NCBI RefSeq assembly: GCF_900141995.1
Contig: NZ_FQZA01000019.1
Span: forward strand, 1 to 32,803
Length of the DNA stretch: 32,803 nucleotides
DNA from: Palleronia salina
GTDB lineage: Bacteria; Pseudomonadota; Alphaproteobacteria; Rhodobacterales; Rhodobacteraceae
Direction of reading: 5' to 3'
The translations under genes and the position numbers were made by a program. Below, in pieces: positions 16,821-32,803 of this stretch (position 1 is the first letter of the stretch; each line of letters starts with the position of its first letter). A model generated the notes under the pieces. The model was given only the letters and a program-made list of their open reading frames with translations. It was not told the origin of the DNA and did not search any database.

Positions 16821-17223
16821 GGCGGGGCCGTGGCGAGCGTGCCTGGAGGCGCGGCGACGAGAGCTCGCAGTCGGATCAATCGACCATCATGGTCAATAAT
16901 CAGGTCGTCGCGGAAGACTAAGCGGTCCCTGACGTGTAGCAGGTCCTGGAAACTTTGGCCGCCACGCTCTCGGCGGTGATCCGCCCTTCCGGCCTGCGGT
17001 GGCTGAGCCTGATCTTCATGCTGTCCGAGAGAGATGTGGAGGCGAGTACCGATGCCGTACCGCCGTTGCATCCCGTCGCTATCCGATTGTTATGCATGTT
17101 AAAATTGGATTTCCCTTGTCGCGGATTGTCCCTCCGGGTAGCACCTGGTTGCAGAGCTTTGGGCGGGTCGGTGTGAAGTGGCGCTGGTTCGAATCCCGGT
17201 TAGAACATCCCGAAGGATCGGAC
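16821..17223. other. Gene-free junction between catabolic operon and integrase
   Basis: About 400 bases without a gene I can support. The composition falls from very GC-rich to mixed near 17080-17110, suggesting a junction between operon and mobile DNA. A 13-bp palindrome, GACCAT-C-ATGGTC, lies at 16882-16894. The minus strand is open across 16673-17071 and overlaps the dioxygenase end, but its product matches no family I know. The final 40 bases hold the tRNA-like scrap and the integrase ribosome site (AAGGA at 17213). Confidence 0.45.
17186..17208 (+). other. tRNA T-arm-like remnant, candidate attachment site
   Basis: GGTTCGAATCC (17186-17196) is the invariant T-loop word of tRNA genes, and it sits 28 bases before the integrase start, where P4-type elements carry their attachment site made from a tRNA 3' end. 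No cloverleaf is formed: the T stem is imperfect and no matching acceptor strand was found upstream. It is therefore at most a 3' fragment. No second copy was seen in the window. Confidence 0.35.
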
Positions 17224-18504
17224 ATGCCGAAACGCGCGAAGGAGATGGGTCCCCTCGAGGTCAAAAGGCTCACGGAGCCCGGGCTTTACGCGGTCGGAGG
17301 CGTGGCCGGGCTTGCCCTACAGGTGACGGCGAGCGGCGCGCGGTCTTGGATTTTTCGCTACCGGTACAACGGCCGCCGCCGGGAGGCCGGGCTCGGGCCA
17401 TACCCGGACGTCCCACTCGCGAAGGCCCGAGACTACGCGCGAGAGGCACGCGACATGCTGCGCCAGGATGTCGATCCTTTGGCAGAGCGCCAAGCGGCCC
17501 GCCGGCGCCTGCTGACCTTTGCCGAGGCGGTCGAGCTGTTCGCGGCGGAAAAAGCAGTGGAATTTCGTAGCGACCTCCACCGCAAGCAATGGCGCGCCTC
17601 TCTGGAGCGCCACGCCCTGCCACAGCTGGGCGGAACAGCCGTGAAGGACATCACCCTGCACGATATCCTCGATGTGCTGCGGCCGATCTGGACAGAAAAG
17701 ACGGAAACGGCCTCGAAGGTTCGCCAGCGGCTGGAGCGCGTTCTCGACTATGCCACTGTCTCCGGCCATCGGGACGGCGAGAACCCGGCGAGGTGGCGCG
17801 GCAACCTCGATATGGTTCTACCCGCGCCGAGCAAGCTCTCCGGAGGCAGCAACTACCCGGCGCTCCAACTCGACGATGCTGCCCGCTGGTTCGCCACCCT
17901 CAGTGAGCGGGGAGGTACCAGCGCGCGGGCGCTTGAGTTTCAGGCTTTAACGGCGGCGCGGACCGGGGCGGTCCGGTTCGCGACCTGGGACGAGGTCGAT
18001 CTGTCGAAGCGGCTCTGGACGATACAGCCGGGGCGTCGGTTCTCGAAAATTCCGCCCAATGGTCGGCCACACCGCGTGCCGCTGACCGCGGCGATATGCG
18101 ATCTGCTCGACTCCTTGCCGCGGATGGATGGTAACCCACTCGTCTTCTGGGCCGCGCGCGGCGGCGCCCTTTCCGACGCGTCGATCGCCGCGGTGATGCG
18201 CAAGATCCACGCGGCGGACCGGCGGGAGGGCAGGGCAGGGTTCATCGATCCCCGTGATCGTCGGCCCGCCGTGCCGCACGGTCTGCGATCGACTTTCCGA
18301 ACCTGGGTTGCGGAGCGCACGCAGTACGATGGGGACATGGCGGAAATCGCTCTGGCCCATCGGGTCGGGAGCAAGGTCCAACAGGCCTATGACCAGTCCG
18401 ATCAGGTCGAGAAACGACGCGAAATGATGGAGGCCTGGGCCCTGTTTTTGGGCGCGTCGCGGCCTTTGGCGAGCAGTATTGTGCCGCTCAGAGGGCCGCG
18501 GTGA
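17224..18504 (+). CDS. P4-type tyrosine integrase
   Basis: A 426-residue tyrosine recombinase. The N-terminal DUF4102 arm-binding domain (LTEPGLYAVGGVAGLALQV, WIFRYRYNGRRREAGLG, PLAKARDYA) is typical of P4/CP4-57-like integrases. A SAM-like core-binding domain follows (about 95-190), then the catalytic domain with Arg in ALTAARTGAVRF, the H-x-x-R box PHGLRSTFRTW, the second His in ALAHRVG and Tyr in QQAYDQS. All catalytic residues appear present. The start is ATG at 17224 with AAGGA 6 bases upstream. Its stop overlaps the GTG of the next gene (GTGA). It should insert the element at a tRNA-like site. Confidence 0.93.
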   Translation: MPKRAKEMGPLEVKRLTEPGLYAVGGVAGLALQVTASGARSWIFRYRYNGRRREAGLGPYPDVPLAKARDYAREARDMLRQDVDPLAERQAARRRLLTFAEAVELFAAEKAVEFRSDLHRKQWRASLERHALPQLGGTAVKDITLHDILDVLRPIWTEKTETASKVRQRLERVLDYATVSGHRDGENPARWRGNLDMVLPAPSKLSGGSNYPALQLDDAARWFATLSERGGTSARALEFQALTAARTGAVRFATWDEVDLSKRLWTIQPGRRFSKIPPNGRPHRVPLTAAICDLLDSLPRMDGNPLVFWAARGGALSDASIAAVMRKIHAADRREGRAGFIDPRDRRPAVPHGLRSTFRTWVAERTQYDGDMAEIALAHRVGSKVQQAYDQSDQVEKRREMMEAWALFLGASRPLASSIVPLRGPR

Positions 18505-22039: not shown

Positions 22040-27049
<5,010 letters not shown>

Positions 27050-27418: not shown

Positions 27419-28009
27419 ATGAACGGATTTTACGACACGAACGCTGAGAAATTCCTCCAAGACACCCAAAACGTCGACATGTCGTCCCTCCGCGATCGAT
27501 TTCTTGCTGCAGTTCCGAAAACCTATACCGGCAGCTCTCGCATCCTCGATGCGGGGACAGGATCCGGTCGCGACGCGCGCTCATTTTACCTCGCAGGATA
27601 CGAGACTGAGGCCTTTGATGCCTCGCCTTCCATGGTGCGGGCGGCGACCGATTTTTCCGATCTTCCCGTCCGGCAGATGCGCTTCGAAGATTTCGAATGG
27701 GAACACTCTTTCGAGGGCATCTGGGCCTGCGCTTCTCTTCTACACGTCGCGCGCGACGACTTGTCGGAAGTTATGCGAAGGCTGGCAGACCATCTGGTCT
27801 CTGCGGGGGCTCTGTATGCCTCGTTCAAGGTTGGAGACGGTGAGCGGCAAGAGGCGGCGCGACATTTCACCGACATGACCGAGGAATCGTTTGCGGCGCT
27901 CCTGGACGACTGCCCGTCGCTCCGGCAGGTTGAAACTTGGCGGACTGAAGACCGCCGTCCGGATAGAAAAGACGACCTTTGGCTCAATGCCTTGATGAGA
28001 AAAACCTGA
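27419..28009 (+). CDS. Class I SAM-dependent methyltransferase, small-molecule type
   Basis: A 196-residue Rossmann methyltransferase. It begins MNGFYDTNAEKFLQDT, has the SAM-binding motif I ILDAGTGSGRDARSF (about 42-56), the acidic motif II end EAFDASPSMV, and motif IV FEGIWACASLLHV. There is no DPPY or PC motif, so it is not a classic DNA N6/N4 or C5 methylase; it looks like a TehB/UbiG-type enzyme. I chose ATG at 27419 because the fold begins there; the frame is open to an ATG at 27254, which would add 55 low-complexity basic residues. It ends 3 bases before the HIT-PLD-helicase gene and must be co-transcribed with it. The target is unknown; modification of a nucleotide, tRNA or peptide are all possible. 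Confidence 0.85.
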   Translation: MNGFYDTNAEKFLQDTQNVDMSSLRDRFLAAVPKTYTGSSRILDAGTGSGRDARSFYLAGYETEAFDASPSMVRAATDFSDLPVRQMRFEDFEWEHSFEGIWACASLLHVARDDLSEVMRRLADHLVSAGALYASFKVGDGERQEAARHFTDMTEESFAALLDDCPSLRQVETWRTEDRRPDRKDDLWLNALMRKT

Positions 28010-28012
28010 CGA

Positions 28013-31000
28013 GTGCCCTCCGAGATTACCCCACCTGAGCCAAAAACATCCTGCCCGTGCTGCGCGCCATCCATCGAGAAGATTGTCGAGTGCGATGCGC
28101 AGACCATCTTGGTCCGAGATGGCATGGGCATTATTCTCGCCCCACGCCGCCATGTGACCCGTTGGCGCGACCTTTCGGAGCCCGAACAAGCCGCCCTTGT
28201 TGCGCGCATCACGCCAGCCCAGACTCTCTTGGAGGAGGACGGTGGCCCGGCACCAGTCAAGCTTATTGAAACCGCCGAACACTTCCATATCCGGTTGGAT
28301 GTCCCCACCACTGCCTCCAGCCCCATCCCTGGCGCGCCACATGACCGACCGTTGATCTCCGGCGGCGAAGATGCGCTGCACGCTCACCTGCGCCCCCTCA
28401 TCGATCAGGCGCATTCTGTCGACCTGGCAGTGTCCTTTCTGATGACCTCGGGCGCGCGCCTGGTCCTACCTCATCTGCGCGACCTATTGGAACGCGGCGG
28501 GCAGCTCCGGTTGCTCACGGGCGACTACCTCGACGTGACCGAGCCGACTGCACTGCGCCTGATGGAAGATCTGGACCACAACCGACAGCTCTACGTATTT
28601 CGAGCTGCCCGCATTCCGTTTCACCCTAAGGCCTGGATGTTCTCTTTTGCCGATGGAGCCGGGGCCATGATCGTTGGCTCGTCGAACCTTTCCCGTTCGG
28701 CATTGACCGAAGGTGTCGAATGGAACCTCCGCCACTTCGATCGGTCGGACGCGGTCCCCCTGATCGCTGCCCGAAATGCTTTCAAGGGTCTGCTGGTGCG
28801 GCCGGAGGTGACAGAACTCTCCGGGGAATGGATCGACAGCTATGAGACCCGCCGGGTCAACCCCATGCCGATACGCTCCGGCGTTCCGGAAGAGAGGCCG
28901 GAAGATGCGCCGAAGCCCCATGACATCCAGAGGGAAGCCCTGAACGCTCTGGCTACCACGCGAGCCAAGGGGTATCGCGCCGGCTTGGTCGTGCTTGCCA
29001 CCGGACTTGGCAAGACTTTCCTTGCCGCATTCGACAGCCAGCCGGCCACACGCATTCTCTTCGTTGCCCATCGCGAAGAGATCCTCACCCAGGCTATGGA
29101 GGCTTTCCGCGCTGTAAGACCCAAAGCACGCCTCGGTCGGTTCGGCGGGGGCGACAAGGATTTCGGCGCGGATGTGCTTTTTGCCTCGATTCAGACGCTC
29201 TCCCGCAACCAGCACCTGCAACGCTTCGCTCCAGACGCCTTCGACTACATCGTCGTCGACGAGTTCCACCACGCCGCCGCGGCGACCTACCGCAGGATCA
29301 TCGATCATTTCACCCCGGAATTCTTGCTGGGCTTGACTGCAACACCAGACCGCAGCGATGGCGGCGACCTTCTGGGTCTCTGCGAGGAAAACCTCGTCTA
29401 CGAATGTGACCTGTGGTCCGGCATCGACCGCGAGCTTCTTGCCCCGTTTAAATACTTTGGTGTGCCCGACCCTGTGGAGTATGCGCAGATCCCCTGGCGC
29501 AGCGGCAAGTTCGACGAGTCCGCGCTGACCTTGGCCGTCGCTACGCAGGCGCGCGCTGAAAATGCACTCAATCAACTGGCCCGGCGCGGCGGCAAGAAGG
29601 CCATCGGCTTCTGCGTCTCCCGCCGCCACGCCGATTTCATGGCCGAGTTCTCGCAGGCGCGAGGATTGCGCGCTGTCGCCGTCCATTCCGGCGACACGTC
29701 ATCCCCGCGCGCCAGTGCCCTCAAAGCCCTCGAAAACGGCGACCTCGACATTGTCTACGCCGTGGACATGTTCAACGAAGGCGTGGACGTGCCGTCGATC
29801 GACACCGTGCTGATGCTGCGCCCGACGGAAAGCCCTGTGATCTGGCTCCAGCAACTCGGCCGCGGCCTGCGCCGCTGCACCGAGAAGACCCACCTTGCCG
29901 TGATCGACTATATAGGCAATCACCGGGTCTTCCTGACCAAGGCTCGCACACTACTACAGATCGGCGCAGGCGAAGGTGCCCTGCGAATGGCGCTCGAGAG
30001 GTTCGAGCGCCATGAGATAAGCTTCCCCGCAGGCTGCGAAGTCACCTATGATCTCGAAGCCCTCGACATCCTAAAATCGTTGATCCGCCAGCCCCGCGAC
30101 GGCGAGGAACTGACGGCTTTCTACCGAGACTTCCGGGATCGGCATGGCGTCCGTCCAACCGCGTCGGAGGTCCAACATGCGGGCTTCAATCCAGGTCGCA
30201 CGGGGCACGCCGGATGGCTCGGCTTCGTAAACGACATGGGCGATCTCGCCGGCACTGACCATACGGCGTGGACCTCCCACAAGGCTCTGCTCGACGAGAT
30301 CGAAACAACCCGCATGACGCGCAGTTACAAGATGCTCGCGTTGCGCGGCATGATTGAGGCTGGAGCCTTGCCGGGCCGCATCTCTGTCACAGCTCTTGCT
30401 GAGCGCGTTGCTCGCCTTGCCAAGCGAAACCCAGAAATCCAGGCAGATATCAGCGTCGATCCGGACGACCTTGAAGCCGTTCAGACCATGCTCATGAAAT
30501 ACCCCTTGAAGCTCTTGGGCGAGACCGAATGGTTCCGATCCGGCTCGGGCGCATTCGAGACCACACTTGACGATAACGGCGATACCGCCCTTGCCAATCT
30601 CGCCTCGGAACTCGTCGACTGGCGGTTACTTCGTTACTTGCAAACCCGCCGTGTGACATACGATCAGCAGGAAACACGCCCTCTTGCCGAGGCCGCAGAG
30701 GCCCCGGGCGGGTTTCTCAATACCCCTGCTACCGGCCCCCGGATCTGGGCAGAATACCCTCGCGACCGCATCCCGCCGCTCTTCGGCGCAGTGTTCAACA
30801 CAGGCTCTTGGAATTCCGGCATCGTCGTCATTCCAGATGCCAAGGCCATGGTGCTGCTTGTGACAATGGACAAAAGTAGCATGTCTGTTGGCGACCATTA
30901 TGCCGTCGAGTTCGTTAGTCCCACCCGTTTCGTTTGGCAGACCCAAACCAGCACGCGGAGAAAAAGCCTCCGAGGGCGGATCATCGCCGGGGAAGAACCT

Positions 31001-31180
31001 GGATGGAGGATGCATCTATTTCTCCGCAAATCGAAGCTGCGCGACGGCCGCGCGGCGCCTTTCCGATACGCTGGGCCAGTTGAATTTGCGGGATGGGAAG
31101 GTGAGGCGCCTATAACCGTGCAACTCAATCTGGCGGAGCCATTACCCGAGGGCCTGCGCGAACTGTTTGGGATGGGGTGA
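28013..31180 (+). CDS. HIT-PLD nuclease-SF2 helicase-DUF3427 fusion, SauUSI-like type IV restriction enzyme candidate
   Basis: A 1055-residue protein. Domains: a HIT-like domain (about 12-98) with CPCC near the start and His90-x-His92-x-Arg94, where the last triad position is Arg but the middle nucleophile-type His is kept; a PLD-type nuclease (about 115-260) with HPKAWMF (His204, Lys206) and GSSNLSRSALTEG; an SF2 helicase with ATGLGKTF near 330, DEFHH near 415, LTATPDRSDGGD and QLGRGLRR; and a C-terminal DUF3427 region with WQTQTSTRRKSLRG and HLFLRKSK. PLD-helicase-DUF3427 is the architecture of SauUSI, an ATP-dependent enzyme cutting 5-methylcytosine DNA. The GTG at 28013 follows the methyltransferase stop by 3 bases. 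Its role as restriction enzyme is inferred from architecture; the HIT fusion is the unusual part. Confidence 0.88.
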   Translation: MPSEITPPEPKTSCPCCAPSIEKIVECDAQTILVRDGMGIILAPRRHVTRWRDLSEPEQAALVARITPAQTLLEEDGGPAPVKLIETAEHFHIRLDVPTTASSPIPGAPHDRPLISGGEDALHAHLRPLIDQAHSVDLAVSFLMTSGARLVLPHLRDLLERGGQLRLLTGDYLDVTEPTALRLMEDLDHNRQLYVFRAARIPFHPKAWMFSFADGAGAMIVGSSNLSRSALTEGVEWNLRHFDRSDAVPLIAARNAFKGLLVRPEVTELSGEWIDSYETRRVNPMPIRSGVPEERPEDAPKPHDIQREALNALATTRAKGYRAGLVVLATGLGKTFLAAFDSQPATRILFVAHREEILTQAMEAFRAVRPKARLGRFGGGDKDFGADVLFASIQTLSRNQHLQRFAPDAFDYIVVDEFHHAAAATYRRIIDHFTPEFLLGLTATPDRSDGGDLLGLCEENLVYECDLWSGIDRELLAPFKYFGVPDPVEYAQIPWRSGKFDESALTLAVATQARAENALNQLARRGGKKAIGFCVSRRHADFMAEFSQARGLRAVAVHSGDTSSPRASALKALENGDLDIVYAVDMFNEGVDVPSIDTVLMLRPTESPVIWLQQLGRGLRRCTEKTHLAVIDYIGNHRVFLTKARTLLQIGAGEGALRMALERFERHEISFPAGCEVTYDLEALDILKSLIRQPRDGEELTAFYRDFRDRHGVRPTASEVQHAGFNPGRTGHAGWLGFVNDMGDLAGTDHTAWTSHKALLDEIETTRMTRSYKMLALRGMIEAGALPGRISVTALAERVARLAKRNPEIQADISVDPDDLEAVQTMLMKYPLKLLGETEWFRSGSGAFETTLDDNGDTALANLASELVDWRLLRYLQTRRVTYDQQETRPLAEAAEAPGGFLNTPATGPRIWAEYPRDRIPPLFGAVFNTGSWNSGIVVIPDAKAMVLLVTMDKSSMSVGDHYAVEFVSPTRFVWQTQTSTRRKSLRGRIIAGEEPGWRMHLFLRKSKLRDGRAAPFRYAGPVEFAGWEGEAPITVQLNLAEPLPEGLRELFGMG

Positions 31181-31226: not shown

Positions 31227-31311
31227 TTACTTGCCGGGCACTAGGTAGGGCGGGATGGGCGCGTACAGTTTTTCGCTGCGCCCGCCACGTGCTTCGAGTT
31301 GGGCGATTTGC
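31227..31311 (-). pseudogene. C-terminal tail of a truncated gene next to the IS1182 remnant
   Basis: The minus strand ends at a TAA (31229-31227) after a coding-like tail containing QIAQLEARGGRSEKLYAPIP. Upstream of about 31312 the sequence changes to the IS1182 leader, including GAGTTTTTCAAC on this strand, which resembles an IS end. The gene therefore seems to have lost its 5' part to the insertion. The parent family was not recognised. It converges on the HIT-PLD-helicase gene with 46 bases between stops. Confidence 0.4.
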
Positions 31312-31382
31312 GTTGAAAAACTCTTCTCGTTTTGAGGTCTGAGCGCTGATTCAGTTTCTCCGTAAAGCCGGGAGGACTGGCG

Positions 31383-32450
31383 ATGTTGGGCAGAAGCAGA
31401 AAGCGCAGCCGGCGTTGTTTTGGGAGTGCCCCCTGGGAAGATCGCTTTACTCAGGATCACCAGCTTCGCTCCATCGACCGCTTTGTCGATCTGAGGAGCA
31501 TCCGCGGCTATCTGGCGGGTTTCTACTGCCACACTGGCCGCTCGTCGGTCGATCCCGAGCTGCTGATCCTTATGCTCCTGGTCGGTTAATGCTTCGATCT
31601 CCGGTCCGAGAGGCGGCACTGCGATGAGGTCCACCTGAACCTCACGCATCGCTGGTTCTGCCGCCGCGACCTGTCGCACGGCATTCTCAATCAGTCGACT
31701 TTCTCGAACAATCGCCATGGTCGTTTCGAGAGAGCGAGCTGGTGCGGCAACTGTTCGAGACAACTGTAGGGTGCTATGTCGCGGAAGGGCAGGTCAGAGG
31801 GTAGCGTATGGCGATCGATGCCAGCCTGACCGAGGCTGATGCTAACAAGCAGGACCCGACGCCCAGGGAAGAATGGGACGCGGCGCGGATCGAGCCGGCC
31901 GATGCGCCGCGCGCCGTTCGAGAATATCCCGACAAGTTGGACGAAGCTGTTCGCGGCCGGCAGCGAGGTGCAGCCCAGTTTCACCTCGCATTCTGATCCG
32001 GCCAACCAGTGGACGGCAGCCTGCTAGGGTCCGGCTTTCTTCAGGTACTCCGACAATCACCTGTTCGATACGGATCACGGGGTCATCGTCGATGTCGAGG
32101 CAATACGGTTGGTCAGGCAGGCCGAGGTTGGCTTGACCAAGACCATGCTGGATCGGGTGAAGGCAAAGTTCGACCTCCGTCCCGAGCTTCTGATCGCCGA
32201 CGCTGCGTATGGGACCGGGCCGATGCTGGGCTGCCTGGTCGACCGCAAGATCGCACCGCACATTCCGGTCTTCGACTAGTACAGCCGCAGCGATGGAACC
32301 TGGAGCCGGGCGGATTTCGAGTGGGACGTCGAGAACGATTAATCCGTCTGCAGCGAGGGTCAGTCACTGAAACACTTTTGCCGGAACTATTCCGACCCGA
32401 CCCGGAGGGCGACCAGTGACAAGAGTGCCAAAGACCGCGCCCTGCAACTG
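31383..32450 (+). pseudogene. Decayed IS1182-family transposase
   Basis: After a GGAGG Shine-Dalgarno, the ATG at 31383 opens a reading frame with DHQLRSIDRFVDLRSIRGYL and GRSSVDPELLILMLLVG, typical of IS1182 transposases. Decay is clear: TAA at 31587 replaces the Tyr of the GYCF motif, then the same frame resumes with DLRSERRHCDEVHLNLTHRW; a frameshift follows near 31725; a TAG lies near 31801; a second frameshift near 31950 leads to YSDNHLFDTDHGVIVDVEA and DAAYGTGPMLGCLVDRKIAP; further stops occur near 32026, 32278 and 32340. Similarity fades at about 32450, where the IS3 element starts. The element cannot make an active transposase. Confidence 0.88.
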
Positions 32451-32451
32451 C

Positions 32452-32803
32452 TGAGCTGCCCCAACCGAGTGGTCCAGGTTGATTGTTAGTGCATCGCTGG
32501 TCGCCGGTCGACGGCTATGATGCTCTCCGGCGCCGGAGGCCTGTAGCCCAAGGCGCTGTGGGGCCGGACGGTATTGTAGTGGCGACGCCACCGCTCGATG
32601 AGGATCTGGGCCTCACGGAGCGAATAGAAAACCTCTCCGTCGAGCAGCTCGTTGCGGAATCGAGCGTTGAAGCTTTCGCAGTAGCCGTTCTCCCAAGGTG
32701 AGCCAGGCTCGATGTAGGCGGTCTTGGCACCGACGGCGCCGATCCAGTCGCGGACCTTCAGAGCAACAAATTCGGCACCGTTGTCGGACCTTATAAACTC
32801 CGG
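32452..32803 (-). mobile_element. IS3-family element, one end, inserted in the IS1182 remnant
   Basis: The element starts at a TG dinucleotide (TGAGCTGCCCCAAC at about 32452), consistent with IS3-family ends, 34 bases beyond the transposase stop. The exact terminal repeat cannot be confirmed without the other end, which lies outside the window. Confidence 0.6.
32486..32803 (-). CDS. IS3-family transposase, C-terminal part (cut by window edge)
   Basis: About 105 residues of an IS3-type OrfB integrase domain are visible: RSDNGAEFVALKVRDW (second catalytic Asp), SPWENGYCESFNARFRNELL (catalytic Glu), FYSLREAQILIERWRRHYNT and RPHSALGYRPPAPE, ending at TAA 32488-32486. The frame is intact within the window. 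The element's terminus probably lies at about 32452, where TGAGCTGCCCC begins and the interrupted IS1182 sequence stops. The N-terminal OrfA and the first catalytic Asp lie beyond the right edge. Confidence 0.9.
   Translation of the reverse strand, partial: PEFIRSDNGAEFVALKVRDWIGAVGAKTAYIEPGSPWENGYCESFNARFRNELLDGEVFYSLREAQILIERWRRHYNTVRPHSALGYRPPAPESIIAVDRRPAMH

Follow-up and report, generated by a model that had tools for sequence, protein, structure and literature searches.

A reading frame of Palleronia salina places a domain of the HIT type, a fold known from nucleotide-handling enzymes, in front of what looks like a DNA-degrading machine, and the question that this raises is what such a domain does there, and with which partner. 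The frame lies in a stretch of 32,803 nucleotides, the whole of which was analysed and is called the window hereafter. A first-pass annotation, made from the letters alone, had proposed that the protein joins a HIT domain, possibly acting as a hydrolase or sensor of nucleotides, to the PLD nuclease, SF2 helicase and DUF3427 parts of SauUSI. The protein is indeed an enzyme of the SauUSI kind, in a new variant, and a neighbour more informative than the HIT fusion is a methyltransferase gene immediately upstream, absent from that annotation. The features that matter are these.

22040..27049, minus strand: RecQ-UvrD fusion helicase, divergent; a possible associated gene (Pfam)
27419..28009, plus strand: class I SAM methyltransferase (Methyltransf_25), 196 aa from the likely ATG; the ORF is open from 27254
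28013..31180, plus strand: HIT-derived/PLD nuclease/SF2 motor/coupler/DUF3427 protein, 1055 aa, GTG start
28043..28321, plus strand: HIT-derived domain, residues 11-103 (HIT profiles of relatives and fold comparison)
28052..28063, plus strand: CPCC with C14 and C17, presumed zinc ligands (alignment of relatives' N-termini)
28151-28153, plus strand: H47, presumed zinc ligand (same alignment)
28280-28282, plus strand: H90, presumed zinc ligand (same alignment)
28280..28294, plus strand: degraded triad H90-F-H92-I-R94, canonically HxHxH (alignment and motif tally)
28397..28744, plus strand: PLD nuclease domain, residues 129-244 (Pfam PLDc_2, 4.6e-7)
28913..29872, plus strand: SF2 motor (Pfam ResIII 4.3e-36, Helicase_C 3e-13), with motifs ATGLGKT at 329-335, DEFHH at 416-420 and QLGRGLR at 614-620
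30752..31156, plus strand: DUF3427/SauUSI-type target recognition part, residues 914-1048 (Pfam 1.2e-12)

The explanation of the locus as a whole that we find probable, if far from assured, is that of a SauUSI-type, DUF3427-guided PLD endonuclease bearing a HIT module that has lost its catalysis, with the methyltransferase as enzymatic helper. The frame would encode an ATP-driven nuclease; its HIT domain would go back to a catalytically active hydrolase of nucleotides that was joined to the engine in a single event, early in the history of the family; in the Rhodobacterales-type lineage this catalysis would have been lost, leaving a small, probably zinc-held module, and the operon-coupled class I methyltransferase would be the present helper.

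The engine and its family

The window protein is matched by the PADLOC model mREase_IV at 6.5e-108 and, in a profile search, by PDB 7clg, which is SauUSI, at 7.8e-83; SauUSI is also the best structural match of its model, over residues 300-1053. The HxK and GSxN features of PLD nucleases are present, with H204, K206 and G222-N225 (S224 and N225 lying within) invariant in a 46-row alignment, and the SF2 motor is related to that of SauUSI by profile and by structural match. At the C-terminal end the Pfam match to DUF3427 covers the second half of the profile only, and the recognition part aligns with residues 792-917 of 7clg at 5.7e-11 in the profile search; the layout first proposed is supported. 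Both proteins unite PLD nuclease, SF2 ATPase, helical coupler and a DUF3427/SRA-type part in one chain. SauUSI, however, begins at its PLD domain, without HIT, whereas the window protein has HIT in front; and the SauUSI clade has a NUDIX gene directly upstream (5/5 loci with at least 600 nt upstream), without a methyltransferase, whereas a methyltransferase occupies that place beside the window enzyme.

Excerpts of published accounts describe in SauUSI a recognition domain that binds the target, an ATPase that translocates and a PLD dimer that cuts repeatedly (PMC7913695), the single polypeptide being described as sufficient for activity (PMC3874153), and the reading of modified DNA by DUF3427 has been predicted by others too (from an excerpt of PMC7159879). 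By analogy, DUF3427 would here recognise a (modified) site, the SF2 motor would then translocate, and the dimeric PLD domains would shred the DNA as in SauUSI; cleavage and its dependence on modification are thus expectations drawn from that likeness. The host genome encodes, on another contig, a C5-cytosine methyltransferase, so that an enzyme aimed simply at m5C would put the host's chromosome at risk if sequence contexts did not differ, and this stands against a plain m5C-directed reading of the window enzyme.

In a tree built by a quick method on 111 rows of the PLD-motor core (SH-aLRT, no mixture model, long branches being flagged in the outer clades), the HIT carriers form one clade of 84 rows, with support 100, in which, states being set by clade, a single gain of HIT suffices. 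A survey of homologues for the fusion, advised at the outset, thus leads to one event common to the clade, and a fusion peculiar to the window protein is ruled out. HIT profiles match 82 of the 84 rows, some short-HIT rows as weakly as 9e-4, the other two (L055 and L093) being cut by contig ends; they match 0/27 outer rows. The clade divides into canonical subclades, three in number and with 28 rows together, the window's own subclade with 32 rows, and a short-HIT subclade of 24 rows, whose open frames measure 952 to 1160 aa; outside this clade stand the SauUSI clade (5 rows), a helical-N clade with another N-terminal part (16) and a HIT-less clade (6).

The window protein finds a match at E<=1e-60 in six of 385 genomes of its class, its own included. 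When the engine without its HIT part is the query, 21 of 398 genomes match at E<=1e-40, again counting the window's own; besides the window, only L102 among the loci returned matches HIT profiles, several of these loci being fragments or broken copies with the N-terminus out of view (e.g. L015 and L103). Among plasmids, 710 records match, and in three of them the match extends over 80% of the protein. A phage origin is ruled out by a scan of viral contigs, which gave two distant helicases, and by a search of phage records, none of the 1840 with a match covering 80% of the protein and the best reaching 68% coverage, with 32% identity, and leaving out residues 1-101.

The HIT-derived domain

The N-terminal domain has no Pfam match, lying below Pfam detection, and its HIT fold is recognised by profile and structure comparison; the assignment of residues 1-110 to HIT, made at first from the letters, is confirmed in ancestry as in fold, and chance resemblance is ruled out by this fold and by the canonical relatives. 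The fold is that of the HIT hydrolases (Fhit, Hint, Ap4A phosphorylase), and the full HIT motif with a GD..DPRGG segment behind it is found among the window's relatives as it is in those hydrolases, whereas in the window domain neither the third His nor the AGQT loop is present. Its motif, HFHIRL, departs from the HxHxHxx and AGQT-type loop of HIT hydrolases and transferases, and the FNxGxN...AGQT loop of canonical relatives is missing from it (by eye, in the alignment).

The extent of this decay may be followed in an alignment of 82 N-termini, comprising the best 80 of 186 relatives from a scan of a species-genome collection, the window protein and three plasmid relatives, less L044 and L045, which lack the anchor motif; as the loci are the best 80 of 186, the frequency of HIT among them is biased towards close relatives. 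HxHxR is read in 43 rows, HxHxH in 23, HxHxS in three and HxHxV in one; eight rows have lost the middle His, and four are not readable (three without N-terminus, and L094, which is misaligned). By eye, L094, L014 and L102 are canonical. HxHxH is found in 26/26 N-terminus-bearing members of the three canonical subclades and in 0/56 Rhodobacterales-type members, the 56th being L045, read by eye. In the latter group the third His is missing from all 55 readable rows as well as from L045, and eight rows have lost the nucleophile His itself, at the position of H92, while retaining the presumed zinc ligands. The triad first read in the window protein, HxHxR with the middle His kept, is therefore exact for this protein, and its conservation holds for the 43 rows of the tally and fails elsewhere, where H, S or V takes the third place or the middle His is gone.

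By comparison with zinc-type HIT proteins we take C14, C17, H47 and H90 to be zinc ligands. The CxxC...H...H residues of the zinc-type site are present in the window domain, which may bind zinc, and all four equivalents occur in 76 of the 79 rows having an N-terminus, the others being L053 (one Cys lost), L050 (the row ends short there) and the misaligned L094; L045, outside this tally, has Cys in place of H47. What remains of the domain is under purifying selection, its dN/dS lying well below 1: the median is 0.20 in the HxHxR group (80 pairs) and 0.27 in the short-HIT group (43 pairs), above the 0.06 and 0.15 of the motor, for pairs with overall dS of 0.1-1.5 taken from 22 and 16 sequences of these two groups. 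The remnant would most likely serve in docking or regulation, either docking a partner or stabilising the dimer, and the passage from an active enzyme with HxHxH, by way of HxHxR, to a short remnant that keeps only the presumed zinc ligands would make a clean case of an enzyme turned into a structural domain.

Another role has to be weighed, in which the accessory enzymes would act on a signalling molecule, for instance a second messenger of nucleotide type, as has been suggested for ThsC, the HIT protein of type II Thoeris. An excerpt of the Thoeris work (PMC8565338) gives a HIT gene in 2.4% of these systems and suggests for it a role in the signal, so that ThsC is an antiviral accessory like the HIT domain here, and HIT genes adjoin nucleases in the loci of this analysis. 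ThsC, however, is described there as an additional gene of Thoeris, without PLD-helicase engine, unlike the window fusion; among the genes named in the annotated loci that were read there is neither a cyclase nor a TIR gene, a SIR2-family gene being noted in L007; and the nucleases of the window's family have a presumed DNA-sensing part of their own. We regard the signal role as unlikely.

That the HIT domain retains enzymatic activity or senses nucleotides, gating the nuclease with the altered triad HxHxR, appears quite unlikely. HIT-family members with a changed third position exist, the fold is kept here, and H90 and H92 are invariant across the window's clade (19-row alignment), so that some chemistry or a metal role may persist; against activity stand the missing third His and AGQT loop, the eight rows in which H92 is lost and the presumed zinc ligands stay, and the faster evolution of the HIT region relative to PLD and motor. 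The nucleotide hydrolysis or sensing first held possible for the window domain is for these reasons not supported, and it may hold for the canonical-HIT relatives.

The upstream methyltransferase

The methyltransferase frame stops 3 nt before the GTG of the window enzyme. A homologue lies directly upstream, in the same order and strand, in 25 of the 29 members of the window's subclade that have at least 600 nt upstream (window included, and with incomplete or disrupted copies counted, L023 and L033 among them), and where its frame is intact the stop falls within ~30 nt of the script-chosen start codon of the enzyme. A class I methyltransferase is also upstream in 6/6 loci of the HIT-less clade, weak in L105 and fused to the enzyme in L104, as a frame of 1286 aa; L128 is likewise a fusion. 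A counterpart of this clade in E. coli was discarded, there being no DNA match to L106. With the same upstream length, no methyltransferase is found upstream in canonical-HIT (0/25), short-HIT (0/24), helical-N (0/16) or SauUSI-clade loci (0/5), and a distant homologue (3.8e-8) lies downstream in the helical-N locus L111. As the short-HIT subclade combines a degraded HIT with no methyltransferase, replacement of the one by the other is not general.

A search that starts instead from the methyltransferase gives 15 matches among 398 genomes of the same phylum. Ten have E<1e-30: four adjoin the PLD-motor family (window included), four adjoin HNH nucleases, three of a first HNH family and one of a second, one has beside it an ORF that distantly resembles the PLD-motor core, and the last has no recognised nuclease next to it. 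The five weaker matches have no nuclease-query match within ~1.5 kb on either side. It follows from these neighbourhoods that the pairing of methyltransferase and nuclease is specific.

A pairing as tight as this would suit an ordinary restriction-modification system, with the neighbour as cognate DNA methyltransferase, and so would the PADLOC result, in which mad2, from the MADS defence system, is matched in part (positions 291-404 of the 492 in the profile, 2.5e-10). This is nevertheless very unlikely, since Pfam gives above cut-off the general models Methyltransf_25, 23 and 11, with no DNA methyltransferase family at E<=1, the closest NCBIfam models, of TehB/BchM/BioC type, fall well short of their cut-offs, and homologues occur next to unrelated nucleases and are lacking beside many relatives of the engine; the cognate DNA methyltransferase that characterizes such systems is thus not what the neighbour resembles. 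A likeness to TehB/TPMT in the partner methyltransferases L013, L134 and L135, not significant in the window's own, hints at methylation of sulphur or tellurium. As a helper of the nuclease, the methyltransferase would act on a small molecule tied to the attack, most likely a modified nucleotide.

Other branches of the family keep other neighbours. One canonical-HIT subclade has an SprT-like protease upstream in 11/13 loci, and its restriction to these rules it out as a universal partner; neither NUDIX, class I methyltransferase nor SprT is upstream in short-HIT, helical-N or other canonical loci. For the S. aureus NUDIX beside a SauUSI-type gene the best model is NF007834 (NudG-type, 4.5e-29, below the curated cut-off), with a match to PDB 2rrk at 6.7e-20; of the four NUDIX partners scanned, L011 and L130 score best with another Nudix model. 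A RecQ-UvrD homologue (>55% identity over at least 365 aligned aa) occurs in 16 of the 125 other loci searched, many of which have short flanks; its side and its strand vary.

Partners shared with HNH nucleases

A Hymenobacter plasmid carries a NUDIX-SauUSI pair together with an HNH gene adjoining a HIT gene, and a Persicobacter plasmid carries an HNH-HIT pair. In the second HNH family, distantly related to the first, HIT lies just upstream in Polaromonas and Aromatoleum; in Roseomonas and Acinetobacter the first family has, in HIT's place, a class I methyltransferase homologous to the window's, at 38-41% identity. Among ten HNH plasmid records, HIT adjoins in two, a window-type methyltransferase in two and a MazG/PRA-PH-like gene in two, the HNH gene of one of these last being broken; 4/10 have none of the three, with an L5_gp82-family gene in three and only divergent DNA methyltransferases in one. 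HNH relatives in the 398 genomes have the methyltransferase beside them in 3/3 loci, which are the same three as in the reverse search, and the genome samples overlap, G446, G524, G535, G616, G637 and G694 being among the loci counted more than once. Six stand-alone HIT genes were examined, of which four lie by HNH (L131, L136, L137 and L140) and two, L138 and L139, have no nuclease beside them; L131, first met as the neighbour of a SauUSI-type gene, serves as the HNH query as well, and L140 is a match of both HNH and HIT searches.

With this recurrence, nuclease engines seem to have in HIT, methyltransferase and NUDIX partners that can be exchanged. Across three nuclease families HIT and methyltransferase apparently substitute for one another, and the pattern suggests that SauUSI-type and other nucleases share a set of exchangeable helper enzymes. 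That the methyltransferase and HIT neighbours are passengers of a defence island, without functional link, would agree with the mobile context (an integrase at 16999-18504 in the window, Pfam), with the RecQ-UvrD neighbour found on either side in relatives and with the two HIT genes that no nuclease adjoins, but it is very unlikely in view of the order and strand kept in 25/29 subclade loci, the close spacing of stop and start, the fusions L104 and L128, and the return of window-type methyltransferases beside HNH nucleases.

NUDIX, HIT, MazG and methyltransferase could all act on nucleotides or nucleotide derivatives, and nucleotide clean-up is our best guess for what the helpers do. A more specific and doubtful proposal is that SauUSI-type and the two HNH engines share one helper slot, filled by HIT, by a TehB/TPMT-like methyltransferase, by NUDIX or by a MazG-like enzyme, and that the helper removes a modified nucleotide or toxic product released by the nuclease, preventing its re-entry into host DNA; in the window's lineage HIT would have decayed and the methyltransferase would have taken over. 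Two pairings, offered as a proposal, would fit known chemistry. E. coli NudG is listed, in an excerpt of PMC5389931, as a 5-methyl-dCTP pyrophosphatase, and a NudG-type NUDIX would deal with 5-methyl-dCTP beside SauUSI; Hint-type HIT acts with nucleoside thiophosphates (excerpt of PMC8775712), and HIT would desulfurate nucleotide phosphorothioates while the methyltransferase would S-methylate. The fold of NudG-type NUDIX (PDB 2rrk) differs from those of HIT and methyltransferase, which makes it an analogue within the slot and not a relative.

In the literature searched, mostly open-access, no prior description was found of the pairing of such enzymes with HIT and methyltransferase. The wider partner pattern is the part worth following up: if true, a conserved second component, in which one small-molecule enzyme takes the place of another from nuclease to nuclease, would alter the choice of genes to clone and test, and the way in which cells handle modified nucleotides set free by restriction would become directly accessible. 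As a minor observation, the SIR2-family gene of L007 lies behind a short-HIT enzyme.

A helicase gene with a possible exonuclease domain

The SauUSI-like enzyme shares the window with a large helicase gene:

22040-27049 (-), RecQ-UvrD fusion helicase, 1669 aa counted from GTG

Reading by eye in the same frame upstream of this GTG shows a DLEVD motif of the exonuclease type, so the gene may encode a WRN-like exonuclease-RecQ-UvrD protein. Helicase homologues lie close to the enzyme in 16 of the 125 other loci searched, many of which have short flanks.

Possible borders of the defence island

16999-18504 (+), phage-type integrase (Phage_int_M, Arm-DNA-bind_3)
31227-32803, short, overlapping ORFs
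32486-32803 (-), open frame at the right edge of the window

The integrase separates the defence genes from a catabolic cluster encoding an FAD hydroxylase, an intradiol dioxygenase and an ABC transporter. As the right-edge frame resembles, by eye, the end of a transposase, the island may be bounded on that side by an insertion element.

Neighbours of related enzymes

In one subclade, relatives with the canonical HxHxH motif are directly preceded by a SprT-like metalloprotease gene in 11 of the 13 loci with enough upstream sequence (L061, L077, L080, L084, L090, L092, L095, L097 and others); the protease is possibly tied to covalent PLD-DNA intermediates. Immediately downstream of several short-HIT enzymes, where HIT is degraded, lies a conserved gene:

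L062 8902-12390, about 1150 aa; AAA_30 and PLD matches, both weak; equivalents in L064-L066, L068, L070, L071 and L074

Further genes adjoin a SauUSI-like gene or HNH nucleases (first line), or stand divergent from an HNH gene on three cyanobacterial plasmids (second line):

L011 6829-7149, L146 2108-2434, L147 2167-2469, MazG-like or PRA-PH-like nucleotide pyrophosphohydrolases
L133 1895-2335, L144 1877-2335, L145 1900-2349, mycobacteriophage L5 gp82 family
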